A stretch of 64,000 bases of DNA from Flavobacteriaceae bacterium (lineage in GTDB: Bacteria > Bacteroidota > Bacteroidia > Flavobacteriales > Flavobacteriaceae): positions 1-64,000 of the forward strand of contig JADHLZ010000001.1 of NCBI GenBank assembly GCA_016780345.1, given 5' to 3'. The notes beneath the pieces are model-generated. The model was not told the origin of the DNA and searched no databases. It was given only the letters and a program-made list of their open reading frames with translations. Below are positions 6,206-61,871 of the stretch, in pieces; within the stretch, counting starts at the first letter, position 1; each line of letters opens with the position of its first letter. The position numbers and the translations under genes were made by a program.

Positions 6206-7561
6206 TTAACCAACTTCTGAAATCATTAAATCGAGTCCTTCTCTTATTATTTTTTGTGCTTCAATTTTTGATGATGATGAGTAATCAATCAAAGCAAAAT
6301 CTTCAGGTGCTACTTCATAAATACCTAAATTTTCCATTTTTTCAATATTACCAGTCATACATTCCTTAAGTAATTGCATTGGAAAAATATCCATTGGAAA
6401 AACATCTTCCATTTCTCCTGTTACCACAAATGCTCTTTCCTCTCCATTCAAATTGGTGTTTAGGTCATATTTCTTTTTGGGAAATAACCAAGAAAACGAA
6501 GTTTTATATTTACTTGGAACGCTATTATTAATAAAAGGAATCCAACCAAACATTCTGTACTGATTTCCTTCCCTCAAAACAGAAAAAGTATTGTTATAAA
6601 ACCCTAAGTAATTATCTTTTTCAACAGATCTTCCTGTTAAAACATCACCATTAATATATCTTAAATTTTGTGAAGTATCGATTCCAGCATCTTGAATAAT
6701 TTCACTTAGACTAGATCCAGCAATAGTTTTGTAATATTGAGGGTACTTTACCGGAGGACCAGAAACTGCAATGGTTCTTGTAGGGTTATATTCTCCAGTA
6801 ATAAAAAATTTACCAATTAGTGCAACATCCTCAGCACCAACGACCCAAACTCTTTCTCCAATGTTGACTGGATCAATATGATGAATTTGAACACCAACAT
6901 TTCCAGCAGGATGTAAATTATTTATATGATGAACTTTGATTCCTTCAATACTATTTATAAACGAGTTGTGATTTTTTTCAAGACATATGTGTAAATCACC
7001 CTTAGTTAATTTTTTTAATAATGATATTCCAGTTTTAAACTCTTCTTTTTGTTCATTCAAAATTATTTCTATATCAGCTGAAATTGGTGCTGTATTTAAA
7101 GTTGAAACAAAAATGGATTTAGGCACGTCATTTGGATTTGCTATGATATCATAAGGTCTTTGTTTTAAAAAAGGCCAACATCCAGATATAAGCATATTTT
7201 CTTTAATCTTGTCACTTGTGAAATTTGAAAAATTTGAAATTTTGTGCTTTAAAGCTTGTTGCTTTGCATCACAATTAATCACTATCTCTAAAATTCGTCT
7301 TTTAGCTCCACGAGCAATATCTAAAATTTTTCCAGAAACTGGAGAACAGAATTTAATTTCTGGATTATTTTTTGAGAAAAAAACAGCATCGCCTCTTTTG
7401 ACTTTATCACCAACTTTGACTAGCATTTTGGGCGTGATTAAGTGAAAATCTGAGGGATTTAAAGAAACGGATTTTGGGAAAGGAGCTTTTTTTACAATAT
7501 TTTCCGGAGCACCTTTTAAATTAATGGTTAAACCATTTTTAATTTGAATGTCATTTGACAT
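6206..7561 (-). CDS. nqrA: Na+-translocating NADH:quinone reductase subunit A
   Basis: Cytoplasmic subunit of 451 residues that interacts with NqrB near the quinone site. It opens with the typical 'IQIKNGLTINLKGAPE' and contains 'VSGPPVKYPQYYKT', 'GDVLTGRSVEKDNYLGFY' and 'FPMDIFPMQLLKECMTG', all family blocks. It is the first gene of the nqr operon. A TAAATTTG promoter element lies about 25 bases upstream and a candidate operator palindrome about 77 bases upstream. Confidence 0.97.
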   Translation of the reverse strand: MSNDIQIKNGLTINLKGAPENIVKKAPFPKSVSLNPSDFHLITPKMLVKVGDKVKRGDAVFFSKNNPEIKFCSPVSGKILDIARGAKRRILEIVINCDAKQQALKHKISNFSNFTSDKIKENMLISGCWPFLKQRPYDIIANPNDVPKSIFVSTLNTAPISADIEIILNEQKEEFKTGISLLKKLTKGDLHICLEKNHNSFINSIEGIKVHHINNLHPAGNVGVQIHHIDPVNIGERVWVVGAEDVALIGKFFITGEYNPTRTIAVSGPPVKYPQYYKTIAGSSLSEIIQDAGIDTSQNLRYINGDVLTGRSVEKDNYLGFYNNTFSVLREGNQYRMFGWIPFINNSVPSKYKTSFSWLFPKKKYDLNTNLNGEERAFVVTGEMEDVFPMDIFPMQLLKECMTGNIEKMENLGIYEVAPEDFALIDYSSSSKIEAQKIIREGLDLMISEVG

Positions 7562-7585: not shown

Positions 7586-7593
7586 CAAATTTA
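7586..7593 (-). promoter_or_regulatory. -7 promoter element (TAAATTTG) of the nqr operon
   Basis: It matches the Bacteroidota -7 consensus TAnnTTTG exactly on the minus strand, 24 bases before the nqrA ATG, giving a short leader. No clear -33 TTTG is seen at the right distance. Confidence 0.5.
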
Positions 7594-7637: not shown

Positions 7638-7660
7638 TTATTTATAATTATTCTAAATAA
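7638..7660. promoter_or_regulatory. Candidate Fur-like operator, nqrA/plug intergenic (box D)
   Basis: A 23-bp palindrome of form TTATTTATA-N5-TCTAAATAA. It matches 17 of 18 arm positions of the symmetric consensus derived from the boxes in the iron locus at 59.6 kb. Around the central base, 10 of 11 positions pair. It lies between divergent nqrA and the T9SS plug gene, so it could act on either. The Fur assignment is inference; the sequence repetition is direct observation. Confidence 0.5.
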
Positions 7661-7713: not shown

Positions 7714-8931
7714 ATGAAAACATTTAAGATTTATTTTTTTTGGATTTTTTTCTTGCTAAATTTTTTTATTGTTTTTAGTCAAAACAAAATTACTCCGACC
7801 AACATATACAGCGTTAACTTTAATAATGAAAAACTAAACTCCTCATATATAGTAGTAAAAAAAAATAATTCATTAACTCTAAATTTTGATGACTTAAATT
7901 TAAAAGATTCAGACTATTACTATCAAATCAATCATTTAAATCATCTTTGGGAAAAATCCAAATTAATTAAATCAGACTATATTGAAGGATATGACGATAA
8001 TCTGATTACAAATTACAGCAATTCGTTTAACACGTTAGTTGATTATAAAAACTTTAAAATTACAATACCAAATGAAAATCTAAAATTAAAAATTTCAGGA
8101 AATTATTCAATTAGTATTCATGATAGTAATGGAAAATTTTTATTTGAAAGAAAGTTTTCCGTCCTTGATGAAAAAGCATTTTTAAATATAGATTTTTTTA
8201 AAAGTAAAAATTTGGAAAATTTTGACTTTTATCAAAATCTTGATGTAACTGTAAATTGTAGTAACTGTAATAGTATGACAGGAAACTCTAGTCAACTAAA
8301 ACTCGTAGTAATTAAAAACAATCAATGGGATAATAAAATAGTATTATCTAGGCCTGATTTTTTCTTTGATAATAAATTAATCTATAAAAACATAGAATTT
8401 AAGGGTGGAGATGAATTTTATTATTTTGATACTTCAAATATTAATTCAACTAATTTAAAAGTATTTAAAACAGAATTAAGTGATATTTATAATTCTTATT
8501 TAAGAAAAGATATTGAAAAAACAAACAAAATATACGAATACAGCCCTGACATAAATGGAAAATATTTAATAAATCAGGAAATTGAAAATTATGAAACTGA
8601 AAATGACTATTCAAGAGTTTTTTTTTCATTTAAACCAGTTAAAGTTTTTGAGGAAGATAAAATTTTTGTAGTTGGTGATTTTAACAACTACGAAATCTCT
8701 GAAAAACACCAACTTCAATTAAACAATGACACTTATTTTGGAAATTTTTTGTTTAAACAAGGATTTTATAATTACAAGTACTTTAAAATAAATTCGTTAG
8801 GGGAATCTAATTTTATTGAGGCTAACTTTTGGCAAACTGAGAATAATTATACTGTTCTATTATATATAAAAAAAAATACAGACAAATATTACAGCTTGAT
8901 TGCTTATAAAGAACAAAAAATGATGTTATAA
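7714..8931 (+). CDS. Type IX secretion system plug-like protein (DUF5103)
   Basis: A 405-residue exported protein with a signal peptide (hydrophobic 10-21, probable cleavage after 'FIVFSQ'). The sequence matches my recollection of the DUF5103 family, now named T9SS plug protein, which closes the periplasmic side of the SprA translocon when it is idle. Typical features are the N-terminal beta-rich domain with 'YYQINHLNHLWEKS', a central beta-sandwich and a C-terminal 'GDFNNYEIS' / 'GFYNYKYF' carbohydrate-module-like fold. It is divergent from nqrA. Assignment is from family resemblance, not a search. Confidence 0.75.
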   Translation: MKTFKIYFFWIFFLLNFFIVFSQNKITPTNIYSVNFNNEKLNSSYIVVKKNNSLTLNFDDLNLKDSDYYYQINHLNHLWEKSKLIKSDYIEGYDDNLITNYSNSFNTLVDYKNFKITIPNENLKLKISGNYSISIHDSNGKFLFERKFSVLDEKAFLNIDFFKSKNLENFDFYQNLDVTVNCSNCNSMTGNSSQLKLVVIKNNQWDNKIVLSRPDFFFDNKLIYKNIEFKGGDEFYYFDTSNINSTNLKVFKTELSDIYNSYLRKDIEKTNKIYEYSPDINGKYLINQEIENYETENDYSRVFFSFKPVKVFEEDKIFVVGDFNNYEISEKHQLQLNNDTYFGNFLFKQGFYNYKYFKINSLGESNFIEANFWQTENNYTVLLYIKKNTDKYYSLIAYKEQKMML

Positions 8932-55922: not shown

Positions 55923-56894
55923 TTATTGATTTAAAGTGAAAAAATTTGAGCAAGTAGAGTCAAATTCTAGTAAATCTTTATTATCAAAATTTAGATATAT
56001 TTTTTTGTTTTTTTTGATTGGATAATCATTGTAAAAGGTCCATGTTTCACCATTTACTTTAGCGCTAATTTTATATTCTTTTCCAGCAAATAAACATTTC
56101 TCAACTTCACCTTCAAAATCAGAAAAATCTGTAACCATAATTTTTTCAGGTCTTAAATAATATATCTTATTTTTAATATTAACTTGATTCAAATCCCCTA
56201 AAATCTTTGCGCAATAACAGTTAATAGGATTACAATACATACTCACTGGATTATCATATTGCTGAAGAATACCTGCCTTGAATATTAAAATTTTATCAGA
56301 AATATTAAATGTATCCCTGATATCATGAGTAACTAAAATAGTAGTAGTTTGAGTTTCTTTTACAATTTTATGAATTTCTTCCTGAATACTTAATTTAATG
56401 CTAAAATCTAAGTTACTAAATGGTTCATCAAGTAATAAAAGATCTGGCTCTCTAACTAAAGCTCTAGCCAAACAAGCTCGTTGCTGTTCACCTCCAGAAA
56501 GTTGATCCGGATACCTGTTGCTCAAATTTTGTAGATTTGTTAAGCTGAGGATGTAATCGATCTTAGATAAAAACCTTTTCTCTAGGTTGATTTTTATATT
56601 CTCTATAATGTTTAGATGAGGAAAAAGTGGGTAATCTTGAAAAACAAACCCAATTTTTCTTTCGTTTGGAGTTACAAAAGTATTTTGATCATCTAAAATT
56701 TTTCCATTTAACTCTATTGAACCAGAATTGATTTTTTCTAAACCAGCTAAACATTTTAAAAAAGTAGTTTTACCAGAACCACTTTCACCAATAAAAGAAA
56801 CAATATCACCTTCTTTAACAGAAAAATTTAAATCTCTGATTAAATGCTCATCTTGGCTGTAATATTTTTTTAAATTGTTAACTTTTAAAAACAT
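55923..56894 (-). CDS. fbpC: Ferric iron ABC transporter, ATP-binding protein (FbpC type)
   Basis: A 323-residue ATPase. Walker A 'GESGSGKTTFLKCLAGL', Q-loop 'FVFQDYPLFPHL', signature 'LSGGEQQRACLARALV', Walker B 'LLLLDEPFSNLD' and switch His 'LVTHDIRD'. The C-terminal 90 residues form a TOBE-like domain ('YLRPEKIMVTDF'). I use the ATG at 56894, one codon after the track's TTG. It overlaps the end of fbpB by 17 bases. Confidence 0.93.
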   Translation of the reverse strand: MFLKVNNLKKYYSQDEHLIRDLNFSVKEGDIVSFIGESGSGKTTFLKCLAGLEKINSGSIELNGKILDDQNTFVTPNERKIGFVFQDYPLFPHLNIIENIKINLEKRFLSKIDYILSLTNLQNLSNRYPDQLSGGEQQRACLARALVREPDLLLLDEPFSNLDFSIKLSIQEEIHKIVKETQTTTILVTHDIRDTFNISDKILIFKAGILQQYDNPVSMYCNPINCYCAKILGDLNQVNIKNKIYYLRPEKIMVTDFSDFEGEVEKCLFAGKEYKISAKVNGETWTFYNDYPIKKNKKIYLNFDNKDLLEFDSTCSNFFTLNQ

Positions 56895-58491
56895 CAATCT
56901 GATTATTTACAATTTTTTTCAAAAATATTAACAATACAACTCCCATCATAACAATAATTAAAGAATAAATTGAAGATTTAGGAATCATTTCCTCAACAGC
57001 GTATTCATAGGTTTGTACTGCAAGAGTATCAAAATTAAAAGGTCTCAATATCAATGTTATTGGTAACTCTTTTAAAATATCAACAAATGTTATTAAAAAA
57101 GCTATAGCAATAGCAGATTTATTTATTGGAAAATGTATCGATTTAAATAATTTTAATGAACCCATACCTAAATTTACTGCAGTATCGTCAAATGAGCTTG
57201 GATGTTTTTCAAAACTGGACTTTAATGGAGAAATTCCTACAGCCATATATCTTATTACATAAGCATATATCAAGACAAAAAAAGATCCAATTAAAATTTC
57301 TGATTTAAAAGGAGTTGAAGAAAATAATATTATTAAAGACAAACCAATAACTGCACCTGGCAGAGCATAGGATAATGATATAGCCTCGTTAAAAATTGTC
57401 AATATTTTATTTTTAACTATTCTTCTTAAAAATTGAAAATACACAGATATTGAAATAATTATAAATGTTGCAATTAAAGAAACTAAAATTGTATTTTTAG
57501 ATAAATTAAAGACTTCAACAAATTCTATTCTTTCGAATTCATAAATAACGTTTTCTGAAATAAATAATATTGGAATTACAAAGCCAAAAATAATTGGCAT
57601 TAAACAAAAAAAATGAATTAATAATTTATTTTTAATATTAGGAATTTCCTCTTTAAAATTTTTCGTATTTGGCTTATAACTGTAATTGTATTTTGAATTA
57701 ATAAACCTTTCTAAAACAAAAAATATCAAAACTGTAAAAAATAAAAAAACAGCGAGAAGAGATGCAGTTTCTACATCTTGCATGGAATACCATGATCTAA
57801 AAATGCCACTTGTAAATGTATTAACTCCAAAGTATTTTACGGCACCATATTCATTAAGAACTTCCATTACAACCAAAAAAAGACCAGAAAAAATTGAGAC
57901 TCTTGAAAGGGGTATAACAATTTTAAAAAATGTTTTTGATTTTGACATTCCTAAACTTTTTGACAATTCAATATAGTTTGATCCAATAAGTGAAAAAGAG
58001 AGTCTACAAGCTGTATAAATGTAAGGGTACAAAGCTAAAGCCATTATAATACCTAAAACTTCAATTTGAAGATAATCTTGATTTAGTAGTTCTGAAAAAT
58101 TTGAAAAATACTTTCTTGCATAACTTTGAATTGGTCCTGTGAAACTTAAAATATCACTGTAAGTAAATGCCATGATGTATACCGGGATAGCGAGAGGAAG
58201 ATAAAGTAGAAAATCATAGATATTTTTACCAGTAAATTTATATGAACTCACAAACCAAGCGGGTATTAATCCAAATAATAGGGAAAAAAAAGATGTTATC
58301 ATTACAAGATATACAGTATTGAATGAATAATCGTATAGTAGATTATCCCATAAATATTTAAAATTTGAACCATCAATGTTTATAGTATTAACTATTAAAG
58401 TTAGTATTGGTAAAATGATAATTATAGAAAGAAGAACTGTAAATAATATTAACTTTCTATTGTTTGAATAATATTTTTTCTTTACTTCCAA
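56878..58491 (-). CDS. fbpB: Ferric iron ABC transporter, permease (FbpB type), TTG start
   Basis: A 537-residue inner membrane protein with about twelve helices, formed of two fused permease domains. Both EAA-type loops are present: 'ELSKSLGMSKSKTFFKIVIPLSR' and 'DDTAVNLGMGSLKLFKSIHFP'. This fused form is typical of the FbpB/SfuB/thiamine group. Start must be the TTG at 58491, since a stop lies three codons upstream and no ATG follows soon; it overlaps fbpA by 10 bases. Confidence 0.93.
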   Translation of the reverse strand: MEVKKKYYSNNRKLILFTVLLSIIIILPILTLIVNTINIDGSNFKYLWDNLLYDYSFNTVYLVMITSFFSLLFGLIPAWFVSSYKFTGKNIYDFLLYLPLAIPVYIMAFTYSDILSFTGPIQSYARKYFSNFSELLNQDYLQIEVLGIIMALALYPYIYTACRLSFSLIGSNYIELSKSLGMSKSKTFFKIVIPLSRVSIFSGLFLVVMEVLNEYGAVKYFGVNTFTSGIFRSWYSMQDVETASLLAVFLFFTVLIFFVLERFINSKYNYSYKPNTKNFKEEIPNIKNKLLIHFFCLMPIIFGFVIPILFISENVIYEFERIEFVEVFNLSKNTILVSLIATFIIISISVYFQFLRRIVKNKILTIFNEAISLSYALPGAVIGLSLIILFSSTPFKSEILIGSFFVLIYAYVIRYMAVGISPLKSSFEKHPSSFDDTAVNLGMGSLKLFKSIHFPINKSAIAIAFLITFVDILKELPITLILRPFNFDTLAVQTYEYAVEEMIPKSSIYSLIIVMMGVVLLIFLKKIVNNQIDVFKS

Positions 58492-59507
58492 CCTGTTTTA
58501 TCAAAAATACGAATTGCTTCATTTCTCTTAATTCCAAGCATGTTCAAGTCTAAAGGATCTTTTTTAAACTCTCCCCATTTTTGAACAATTTCATCTGGTT
58601 TTACAGACGGATTCACAGAATATTCATAACTATTATTGACATAAGTCTTCTGTGCACTTAAACTTGTTAAATACTTTATTAATTTAATGGCATTCACTTT
58701 ATTAGGAGCATTTTTTGTGATTGCTATTCCTGAGACATTTATGTGTGCTCCTCTTTCATTTTCTCCTTGATTAGGAAAAAAAACAGAAACTGATTTGCCA
58801 GCATTAATTTCTTCTTCTTTTTCGGAAGATAAAAGCAATCCAATATAGTAGGAATTAACAATTGCTATATCCCCTTGTCCAGCTGCAATTGCTTTTACTT
58901 GGTCTCTATCGCTTCCCTTTGGATCTCTGGCAAAATTAGAAACTACTGCTTCCGACCATTTTGAGGTTTCTTCTAAACCTATATTAGCTATAAGTGAAGA
59001 CATCAAAGCCTGATTATATGCATTTGATGAGGATCTAACCAATAATCTATTTTTCCATTTTTCGTTTGCTAAATCTTCATAAGTAGATAATTCGTTTTTA
59101 TTTACTCTTTCATTACTATATACAATTACTCGAGATCTATAAGTCAATGGAACCCAATACTTATTTACGTCCAATAAATTAGGATCAATATTATTAAAAA
59201 TAGAATCATCATTTATTTTTTGAAACAAACCCAAGTCGGTACCTTGCCATAATTTACCAACATCAACAGTAATGAATAGGTCTGCAGGTGAATTTTCACC
59301 TTCATTAATCATTCTTTGAATTAATTCATCAGCATTAGCCTTTGTTACATTAACTTTTATTCCAGTTAATTCTTCAAATTTCTTGTATTGGATTTCATCA
59401 ACTTTATAATGTCTTTGACTATAAATATTAATTTCATTTAATCTTTTATTATCAGAAGAACAACTAGTTAAAAACAAAGCGACAAAAAAACAAATAAATA
59501 ATCTCAT
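58482..59507 (-). CDS. fbpA: Ferric iron ABC transporter, substrate-binding lipoprotein (FbpA type)
   Basis: A 341-residue periplasmic binding protein anchored as lipoprotein (Cys16 in 'ALFLTSCSS'). The fold matches ferric-binding proteins: 'INIYSQRHYKVDE' near the start, 'GENSPADLFITVDVGKLW', 'WVPLTYRSRVIVYSN' and the iron-binding Tyr pair in 'IAIVNSYYIGLL'. It is first in the fbpABC operon and divergent from the TonB receptor, so Fe3+ brought through the outer membrane can be passed on here. Confidence 0.93.
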   Translation of the reverse strand: MRLFICFFVALFLTSCSSDNKRLNEINIYSQRHYKVDEIQYKKFEELTGIKVNVTKANADELIQRMINEGENSPADLFITVDVGKLWQGTDLGLFQKINDDSIFNNIDPNLLDVNKYWVPLTYRSRVIVYSNERVNKNELSTYEDLANEKWKNRLLVRSSSNAYNQALMSSLIANIGLEETSKWSEAVVSNFARDPKGSDRDQVKAIAAGQGDIAIVNSYYIGLLLSSEKEEEINAGKSVSVFFPNQGENERGAHINVSGIAITKNAPNKVNAIKLIKYLTSLSAQKTYVNNSYEYSVNPSVKPDEIVQKWGEFKKDPLDLNMLGIKRNEAIRIFDKTGWK

Positions 59508-59564
59508 TTTGAAAAAATTGGATTGACGAAATTAAATCATTTTTATTTGAAAAAAAAATTATAT

Positions 59565-59587
59565 TTATTTAGACTAATTTTAAATAA
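59565..59587. promoter_or_regulatory. Candidate Fur-like operator box A
   Basis: Palindrome TTATTTAGA-N5-TTTAAATAA, matching 17 of 18 arm positions of the symmetric consensus. It lies 5 bases upstream of a TATATTTG element for the TonB receptor, so a bound protein would cover the -33 region. It is also 58 bases upstream of fbpA. The Fur identity is inference. Confidence 0.55.
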
Positions 59588-59592
59588 TATAA

Positions 59593-59600
59593 TATATTTG
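59593..59600 (+). promoter_or_regulatory. -7 promoter element (TATATTTG) of the TonB-dependent receptor
   Basis: Exact TAnnTTTG match between the two candidate operators, 39 bases before the ATG at 59640 and 24 before that at 59625. Confidence 0.5.
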
Positions 59601-59615
59601 TGATTTATTAATCTT

Positions 59616-59638
59616 TTATTTAGAATGAATCTAAATAG
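59616..59638. promoter_or_regulatory. Candidate Fur-like operator box B
   Basis: Palindrome TTATTTAGA-N5-TCTAAATAG, 17 of 18 consensus arm positions and 18 of 23 bases identical to box A, whose centre is 51 bases away. It lies just downstream of the predicted transcription start and covers the upstream candidate ATG at 59625. Confidence 0.55.
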
Positions 59639-59639
59639 C

Positions 59640-61871
59640 ATGAAAGAAATTACGTACATAATTCCTCTTTTTATTGTTTTTGTGTTGAATTCTCAAAATA
59701 AAGAGAAATCTAATTATAGTAATCGGGAAAATGAATTTATTAAAGATTCTATAACTGCTCTGGACGAAGTAATTATAAAATCTAATACAATACTTGGAAA
59801 TAAATTTGTAGCAAAAAATAGAACAGGAGCTGCCTACTATTTATCAACAGATGATCTAGCAAAATTTAATTACACCGATATTAATAGAGCATTAAATAAA
59901 ATTTCAGGAATTAATTTTTACGAGGAAGATGGTTTTGGATTACGTCCAAATATTAGCATAAGAGGAACTTCACCAGAGAGAAGTTCAAAAATAGCAATCA
60001 TGGAAGATGGTGTTTTAATTTCACCTGCACCTTACAGTGCATCATCAGCGTATTATTTCCCATCAATCTCGAGAATGCAAGCTGTTGAAGTTTTAAAAGG
60101 GAGTAGTCAAATTCAATATGGACCCTATACAACTGGTGGAGCGATAAATTTTGTTTCAACAGAGATACCAGAATCATTAACTGGAAAAATATCAACCAGT
60201 TTTGGAAGTTTTAGTACTGGTCAAGCACACCTTACATTAGGCGATAGCTTTAATAATTTTGGATACATGATTGAATATTTAAATTTTAATTCTGATGGAT
60301 TTAAATCTTTAGGAAATAATTTAAATACTGGTTTTGATATAAACGAAATAACATCGAAAATTAAATATAAAACTTCTGAAAAATTAAACACTAAACAAAG
60401 TTTAGAACTAAAATTTCATAGTTACGATGAAATATCAAATGAAACTTATTTAGGTTTAACTGAAAACGATTTTAAAATAAATCCTTTTCAAAGATATCTG
60501 GGATCTGTGAAAGATAAAATGGATGCTAAACATATACAATTTTTAATTACTCATGAATTAAATTTTAATGAAAGATTTAAAATTGCAACTAATGCATATC
60601 ACAATGGTTTTAAAAGAAATTGGTACAAATTGAATGATGTTGATTTTGAAGGAAGTTCACAAAAAATTTCAAAAATCATTTCTAATCCTGAAAATTACTC
60701 TGGACACTATTTGATATTGAAAGGACTCTCAAATTCAGAAAATGCTTTAAAAATAAAAGCCAATAATAGAGAATACATTTCAAAAGGAATTCAGACTAAA
60801 ATCGACCATCATTGGTATGGAGATAACAACTCGTTTAATGATATTGAAATTGGAATAAGAGTTCACTACGATGAAGAAGACAGGTTTGAATGGGAAGATA
60901 CTTATTCAATGACTAATGGGGAGATGTCTTTAAATACTTATGGAGAAAAAGGTTCACGTGGCAATAGAATAAGCTATGCAAATTCTTTTGCTTCATACAT
61001 AATGTATAAATACAAGATCAAAGGATTTACTGTTTCACCTGGTTTAAGGTACGAATCGATATTATTAGGTAGAGATGATTTTGGAAAAAACAATTCTGAA
61101 AGAATTTTAATTGATCGTTTTTCCAGTAAAAACAAAGTATCTATACTTATACCTGGAATTGGAATTAATTATACCTTTAATAATAAATTTTCAATATTTG
61201 GAGGCATACATAAAGGATATTCACCTCCAGGCAGCTCAGTTGGTCAAAAGGCTGAGGAGAGTGTAAATTTAGAATTGGGAGGACGATTTTCAATACACAA
61301 GTTAAATGCTGAAATTATTGCGTATCAAAATGATTATAACAACTTACTAGGAAATGATCTTGCAGCAACTGGAGGTTTTGGAGAACTTGATTCATTTAAT
61401 GCTGGAAATGCTTTGGTTAATGGATTAGAAATATTATTGACATCAGATATTGTTGAAAATAAAAAAATTTCTGTTCCATTTTCATTTTCATATACTCTAA
61501 CTAATGCAAAATTCTTAACTGATTTTGGAAGTAATCAAGAAATTTGGGGAGAAGTAAGCAATGGAGATAGAATTCCATACATTCCACAGCATCAATTGAA
61601 TTCAAATATTGGTATTAAAACAAATAAATTTGAGATTAATTTTAATGGAAATTATAACGGAGAATTCTCAACTATAGCTAATGGATCAATTAAAATTCCA
61701 TCCTATTTTATATTTGATGTTTCTTTTAAATTCAAAGCTAGACATGGTATAACATACACATCCAAAATAATCAATTTATTTGACAAAAATTACGCCGTTT
61801 CTAGAGCACCTGCTGGATTAAGACCAGGTCATCCTTTTGGAATTTATGTTGGATTTGATTTCCTGTTATAA
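59640..61871 (+). CDS. TonB-dependent receptor (FecA-like, ferric chelate uptake)
   Basis: An outer membrane receptor of about 743 residues. Signal peptide 'YIIPLFIVFVLNSQ', then a TonB box-like 'ITALDEVIIKSN', plug domain with 'GISFYEEDG'-like 'ISGINFYEEDGFGLRPNISIRG' and 'VLKGSSQIQYGPYTTGGAINFV', and a 22-strand barrel ending in 'GIYVGFDFLL'. It lacks the carboxypeptidase-like N-terminal domain of SusC proteins. The barrel resembles FecA-type ferric citrate receptors. The ATG at 59640 gives a compact signal peptide; 59625 is an alternative that lies inside operator box B. Confidence 0.9.
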   Translation: MKEITYIIPLFIVFVLNSQNKEKSNYSNRENEFIKDSITALDEVIIKSNTILGNKFVAKNRTGAAYYLSTDDLAKFNYTDINRALNKISGINFYEEDGFGLRPNISIRGTSPERSSKIAIMEDGVLISPAPYSASSAYYFPSISRMQAVEVLKGSSQIQYGPYTTGGAINFVSTEIPESLTGKISTSFGSFSTGQAHLTLGDSFNNFGYMIEYLNFNSDGFKSLGNNLNTGFDINEITSKIKYKTSEKLNTKQSLELKFHSYDEISNETYLGLTENDFKINPFQRYLGSVKDKMDAKHIQFLITHELNFNERFKIATNAYHNGFKRNWYKLNDVDFEGSSQKISKIISNPENYSGHYLILKGLSNSENALKIKANNREYISKGIQTKIDHHWYGDNNSFNDIEIGIRVHYDEEDRFEWEDTYSMTNGEMSLNTYGEKGSRGNRISYANSFASYIMYKYKIKGFTVSPGLRYESILLGRDDFGKNNSERILIDRFSSKNKVSILIPGIGINYTFNNKFSIFGGIHKGYSPPGSSVGQKAEESVNLELGGRFSIHKLNAEIIAYQNDYNNLLGNDLAATGGFGELDSFNAGNALVNGLEILLTSDIVENKKISVPFSFSYTLTNAKFLTDFGSNQEIWGEVSNGDRIPYIPQHQLNSNIGIKTNKFEINFNGNYNGEFSTIANGSIKIPSYFIFDVSFKFKARHGITYTSKIINLFDKNYAVSRAPAGLRPGHPFGIYVGFDFLL

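Follow-up and report, generated by a model that had tools for sequence, protein, structure and literature searches.

Between fbpA and a divergently transcribed gene for a TonB-dependent receptor, the window (the whole stretch of 64,000 nucleotides of DNA that was analysed) carries two similar palindromes with a promoter element between them (Table 1). The arrangement raises the question of which regulator would read these sites, and whether the motif is read in one way only across the order Flavobacteriales.

Table 1. Boxes, promoter elements and genes of the two loci in the window
Feature	Position	Strand	Remark
Box 1, Fur-type palindrome TTATTTAGACTAATTTTAAATAA	59565..59587	.	kept in G005, G006, G014
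Box 2, Fur-type palindrome TTATTTAGAATGAATCTAAATAG	59616..59638	.	second box also in G006
Receptor −7 promoter element TATATTTG	59593..59600	+	consensus TAnnTTTG (PMC9723704)
Likely fbpA −7 element TAATTTCG	59527..59534	-	inference; G006 has TACTTTTG at the same place
TonB-dependent receptor, FecA-like plug	59640..61871 (first listed ATG 59625)	+	sequence comparison
fbpA, periplasmic ferric-binding protein	58482..59507	-	PDB matches
fbpB, fused permease	56878..58491	-	
fbpC, ABC transporter ATPase	55923..56897	-	
Third box TTATTTATAATTATTCTAAATAA, upstream of nqrA	7638..7660	.	centre 56 bp from nqrA −7
nqrA −7 element TAAATTTG	7586..7593	-	
nqrA, subunit A of Na+-translocating NADH:quinone reductase	6206..7561	-	
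Type IX secretion plug-domain protein; third box lies between its gene and the divergent nqrA	7714..8931	+	

Two palindromes frame the receptor promoter

Boxes 1 and 2 are each 23 bp long, identical to one another at 18 of 23 bases and self-complementary at 9 of 11 pairs; their centres, at 59576 and 59627, lie 51 bp apart with the receptor −7 element between them, bearing out the description in the earlier note. Compared with the published 19-base Fur box of Riemerella anatipestifer, each agrees at 17 bases. With TAnnTTTG taken as −12 to −5, its place in F. psychrophilum promoters (PMC9723704), box 1 spans the receptor promoter from about −40 to −18, and thus the −33 region on which it had been proposed to act, and box 2 spans the receptor transcript from about +12 to +34. 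Relative to the divergent fbpA promoter, box 1 is centred at about −54. Because the first listed ATG of the receptor (59625) lies inside box 2, translation more likely begins at the next in-frame ATG, 59640, which follows the box immediately. A reading of the boxes as RNA hairpins was rejected: box 1 lies upstream of the receptor transcription start and therefore could not act within the receptor transcript.

Both flanking units appear to be ferric uptake genes, as the earlier note had held. The best PDB matches of the fbpA product are iron-binding proteins (E 1e-89 and 2e-88), and the plug region of the receptor resembles that of FecA. Among the matches listed, no NCBIfam model was above cut-off for the receptor, fbpA, fbpB or fbpC, so the ferric assignment stands on the PDB matches.

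The box before fbpA is conserved across the genus

A search for the boxes in close relatives, suggested with the first description of the site, finds one before fbpA in 12 of the 13 genus genomes with sequence upstream of this gene (window genome counted); the exception, G008, has only a half-site there. The fbpA box is kept although the neighbouring gene differs between genomes. A divergent receptor stands beside fbpA in the window genome and G006, both with paired boxes; in G005 and G014, a DUF4856 lipoprotein gene is divergent from fbpA, with one box; and in G003, G012, G017 and G018, among others, a receptor gene lies upstream of fbpA in the same direction. Two boxes, 64 to 70 bp apart, stand before the receptor gene itself in G012, G017 and G018, and a gene for a 374-residue protein (no Pfam match) has a pair 60 bp apart. 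Distances within pairs range from 49 to 70 bp in relatives and follow no helical rule; independent occupancy of the two boxes is therefore likelier than a phased loop.

As a separate observation, an extended element, TTATTTAGAATAATTAAAAATAAGCTTG, in which a Fur box adjoins a −33 TTG, is found again and again in nearly constant form before different genes: receptor, DUF4856 and 374-residue protein (L122, L125, L131, L142, L188).

The motif marks iron, haem and Fe–S genes

Excerpts of the R. anatipestifer literature give the predicted Fur box as ATTTAGAATTATTCTAAAT (PMC5609570, PMC10986502, PMC11967795). They also describe Fur binding to box-bearing promoters in gel shifts (PMC5609570; rhuB in PMC10986502), fur mutants, a derepressed Fur-box mutant (PMC11967795) and a need for Mn2+ in binding (PMC7976709, where the consensus quoted is the classical one of E. 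coli). This published consensus, built without the window genome, served as our test pattern. Summed over 22 genus genomes, it gave 125 matches versus 28 for the reversed control, and 75 of 89 distinct places among the loci fetched around matches lie just upstream of a gene. The six good matches in the window genome (at most 2 mismatches) are at nqrA, at hemA/AraC–hemH, between fbpA and the receptor gene (two), at Mrp–NifU and at the 3′ end of an aminotransferase gene (C10:88546), the last probably not regulatory. A near match, C30:5040, falls inside a gene.

The recurring targets are the receptor, fbpA, DUF4856, DUF6607, flavodoxin, hemA/AraC–hemH, Mrp–NifU, nqrA, the complex III cytochrome and a Rieske protein. 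The earlier note had looked to enrichment before iron genes and fur; the motif is indeed overrepresented upstream of iron, haem and Fe–S genes, but no such box stands directly before fur.

Across 75 sites the box is odd-centred, TTAGAAT-n-ATTCTAA, like a 7-1-7 Fur box. Its outer TT and AA are informative even though they lie outside the 19-mer used for selection, and the full motif is therefore TTATTTAGAATnATTCTAAATAA. Scanned with a matrix of the motif, the window gives three strong sites, box 1, box 2 and the third box. The matrix was trained on those sites too; the independent count is that of the published consensus. The exact 12-base core, TTTAGA-N5-TCTAAA, showed no enrichment over the reversed control and was discarded as a search pattern, being too loose alone. 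A variant, TTTAGAA-nnn-TTCTAAA, stands immediately in front of an AraC-family gene that is followed by ferrochelatase and is divergent from hemA (L088, L114, L119, L124, L137, L139).

Fur as the probable reader of the paired boxes

The two palindromes are very probably Fur boxes that repress the receptor and the ferric importer when iron is plentiful. A Fur-family regulator had been named as the simplest reading, and genus-wide enrichment, conservation and the match to a gel-shift-supported box of the same order all favour it. The window genome, like most genus relatives, has one Fur-family gene. The closest PDB entries to its product are Magnetospirillum Fur and other Fur proteins, and an alignment with Magnetospirillum Fur, from which the ligand positions were judged, indicates that the metal ligands are kept. 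The gene sits in a row between a RelA/SpoT-like gene and purA, the latter downstream as reported for F. psychrophilum, a species with a single fur in which deletion attempts failed (PMC9331221).

When iron is plentiful, metal-loaded Fur dimers would occupy both boxes: box 1 over the receptor −33 region and a short way upstream of the divergent fbpA promoter, and box 2 just downstream of the receptor transcription start. RNA polymerase would be kept off or stopped, and the receptor and the ferric ABC importer would be made only under iron scarcity. We infer that the window organism's own Fur binds the boxes, that it requires metal and that it represses. The boxes carry the Fur box of a duck pathogen over to a streamlined flavobacterial genus, and they give a usable matrix for the order. 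Good matches also stand before iron-using rather than uptake genes, namely nqrA and complex III; therefore, the motif is not read one way only.

A second class of boxes upstream of respiratory operons

Relative to the −7 element, the boxes fall into two position classes. Those in the first touch the −7, −33 or start region and belong to fbpA (in most relatives), Mrp–NifU, AraC–hemH, the receptor and the 374-residue gene. Those in the second lie upstream, with the centre 55–57 or 66–67 bp from the −7 element, and belong to nqrA and to a multihaem cytochrome gene. The third box of the window is of this kind: it agrees with the published Fur box at 18 of 19 bases, making it a better copy than box 1 or box 2, and has the complex III-type geometry before nqrA. 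The earlier note does not mention it.

The multihaem cytochrome gene encodes haem domains and opens a putative alternative complex III operon; in a Weeksellaceae genome it is followed by a gene for a large protein with a twin-arginine-like leader, and the operon name is a prediction from these two features. In the window genome, which is 78% complete, the operon was looked for and not found. Elsewhere its box is present in 48 of 48 order-wide genomes outside family f16 with the upstream region read, 54–57 or 66–67 bp from the −7 element in 47 and without a recognised −7 in one. Counted by genus, with the window genus included, 20 of 29 distances fall at 54–57 bp, 9 at 66–67 bp and none between, so that the two classes are one helical turn apart. 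None of 20,000 uniform draws over a null range of 50–70, chosen by the analyst, gave a phase concentration as high as that observed (R = 0.88), and the same held when counting by family (12 families); relatedness is handled only crudely in this test. Among Weeksellaceae, the box is present in 80 of 80 named genomes, a sample that contains no Riemerella, at 65–67 bp from the −7 element. Boxes at nqrA are rarer order-wide than those at complex III (17 of 30 loci, two of them weak). Together, complex III and nqrA boxes keep a fixed helical phase to the promoter, at 54–57 or 65–67 bp and none between. Across the complex III box lies a divergent gene for a short secreted protein (L135, L145, L147, L323, L325), in both the window genus and Weeksellaceae.

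Genomes lacking Fur offer a view of what reads these boxes. Ten order-wide genomes have no Fur-family match. Six of them form family f16, very small genomes of insect-symbiont size (0.3–0.6 Mb) that keep the complex III cytochrome, and in several cases TATTTTTG, and have no box before it. Three further Fur-less genomes, of family f9, also lack a match to the cytochrome. In G063 (L236; 95% complete), no Fur-family gene was found, yet the complex III box is present. The loss of the box in f16 fits Fur as the binder and counts as support rather than proof, these genomes being about one lineage in which regulation is reduced in general.

A phased position upstream suits a contact activator and not a blocking repressor, which suggests that the complex III and nqrA boxes may activate transcription. 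We consider it quite possible, while stopping short of favouring it, that Flavobacteriales Fur plays both parts, repressing uptake from promoter-overlapping boxes and activating respiratory operons from class-I-like upstream boxes. The position and helical phase of the one motif would then decide which of two readouts it gives. The activating box would be centred at about −66 to −69 or −77 to −79, and the operons activated would be alternative complex III, order-wide outside the Fur-less symbionts, and NQR in part of the order. If true, iron-loaded Fur would turn on iron-costly respiratory complexes, which is physiologically sensible.

Expression data from R. anatipestifer are equivocal on this point. 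In table 2 of PMC5609570, iron limitation lowers a subunit annotated as ‘cytochrome c oxidoreductase quinone-binding subunit 1’ in the wild type and lowers it more strongly in the fur mutant, and under iron limitation its level is lower in the mutant. These values indicate an iron response, but not the one that simple activation predicts.

A Fur-type box at constant helical phase before complex III in 29 genera from 12 families, absent from Fur-less relatives, points to a direct coupling of iron status to respiration, a form of regulation little studied in this bacterial group; in the literature searched, we found no paper joining ‘alternative complex III’ with ‘Fur box’ or ‘ferric uptake regulator’. 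The complex III result matters more than the extension of the known box, and it is the boxes before complex III and NQR that deserve further work.

Other readers of the motif

A further regulator, either a PerR-type second Fur-family protein or an unrelated factor, might read or share the motif. The nqrA and complex III boxes are asymmetric, their promoter-facing half reading TATAAAT, whereas the fbpA boxes are symmetric, and some genomes of the order have two to four Fur-family genes. We nevertheless think this unlikely, given the single Fur-family gene of the window genome and most of its relatives, the recovery of all target classes by the published Fur box alone, and the fact that a matrix made from 24 uptake boxes alone picks the same site at all 48 complex III loci.

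It is very unlikely that the boxes are instead operators of the DtxR/MntR-family regulator that is also encoded. A DtxR-family gene does lie beside a ZIP metal transporter in the window genome, and DtxR-type boxes share the half-sites TTTAG...CTAAA. However, DtxR genes have a conserved box of their own with four bases between hexamers, TTTAGRY-nn-RYCTAAA, versus five here; it occurs upstream of DtxR genes in most families examined (L059–L083) and was not found at uptake genes. The one-base difference makes spacing parity the feature that separates DtxR from Fur operators. Judged from the letters of the sites, DtxR is thus disfavoured as binder of the five-base boxes, although cross-binding would be compatible with the spacing argument. 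At complex III, DtxR fits worse than Fur, since seven genomes without a DtxR match keep the five-base box (G025, G041, G049, G029, G044, G054, G063). At one locus, L079, a four-base DtxR-type and a five-base Fur-type box stand side by side.

That the boxes are chance palindromes in very AT-rich DNA is scarcely credible: GC content in the fbpA/receptor intergenic stretch is 13.5% and the exact core is unenriched, but among 20,000 order-1 shuffles of this region, a single site within 2 mismatches of the published R. anatipestifer consensus turned up in 12 and a pair of sites in none, in line with the earlier note's view of so long a repeat, and the boxes are conserved in relatives and the full consensus clearly exceeds its reversed control.

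Comparison with known systems

With Fur as the preferred reader, the paired boxes are, by their sequence, Fur operators of an already known type. DtxR/MntR operators have the same half-sites, but at the DtxR genes of these genomes are even-centred and one base shorter. Class I activator sites, of which those of CRP are an example, resemble the complex III and nqrA boxes in lying upstream at distances one helical turn apart; the likeness here is of spacing alone. The classical Fur box of E. coli and B. subtilis, TGATAATnATTATCA, is a 7-1-7 site, an odd-centred inverted repeat with the same AAT-n-ATT core, but its half-site is TGATAAT and that of the window is TTAGAAT. Closest is the Fur box of R. 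anatipestifer, a member of the same order, matched at 17 of 19 bases by both window boxes. As far as the excerpts describe them, its boxes likewise lie near iron receptor gene starts, some in divergent promoters, whereas in the window two boxes frame one promoter, and in the window genus a distant box also stands before respiratory operons.
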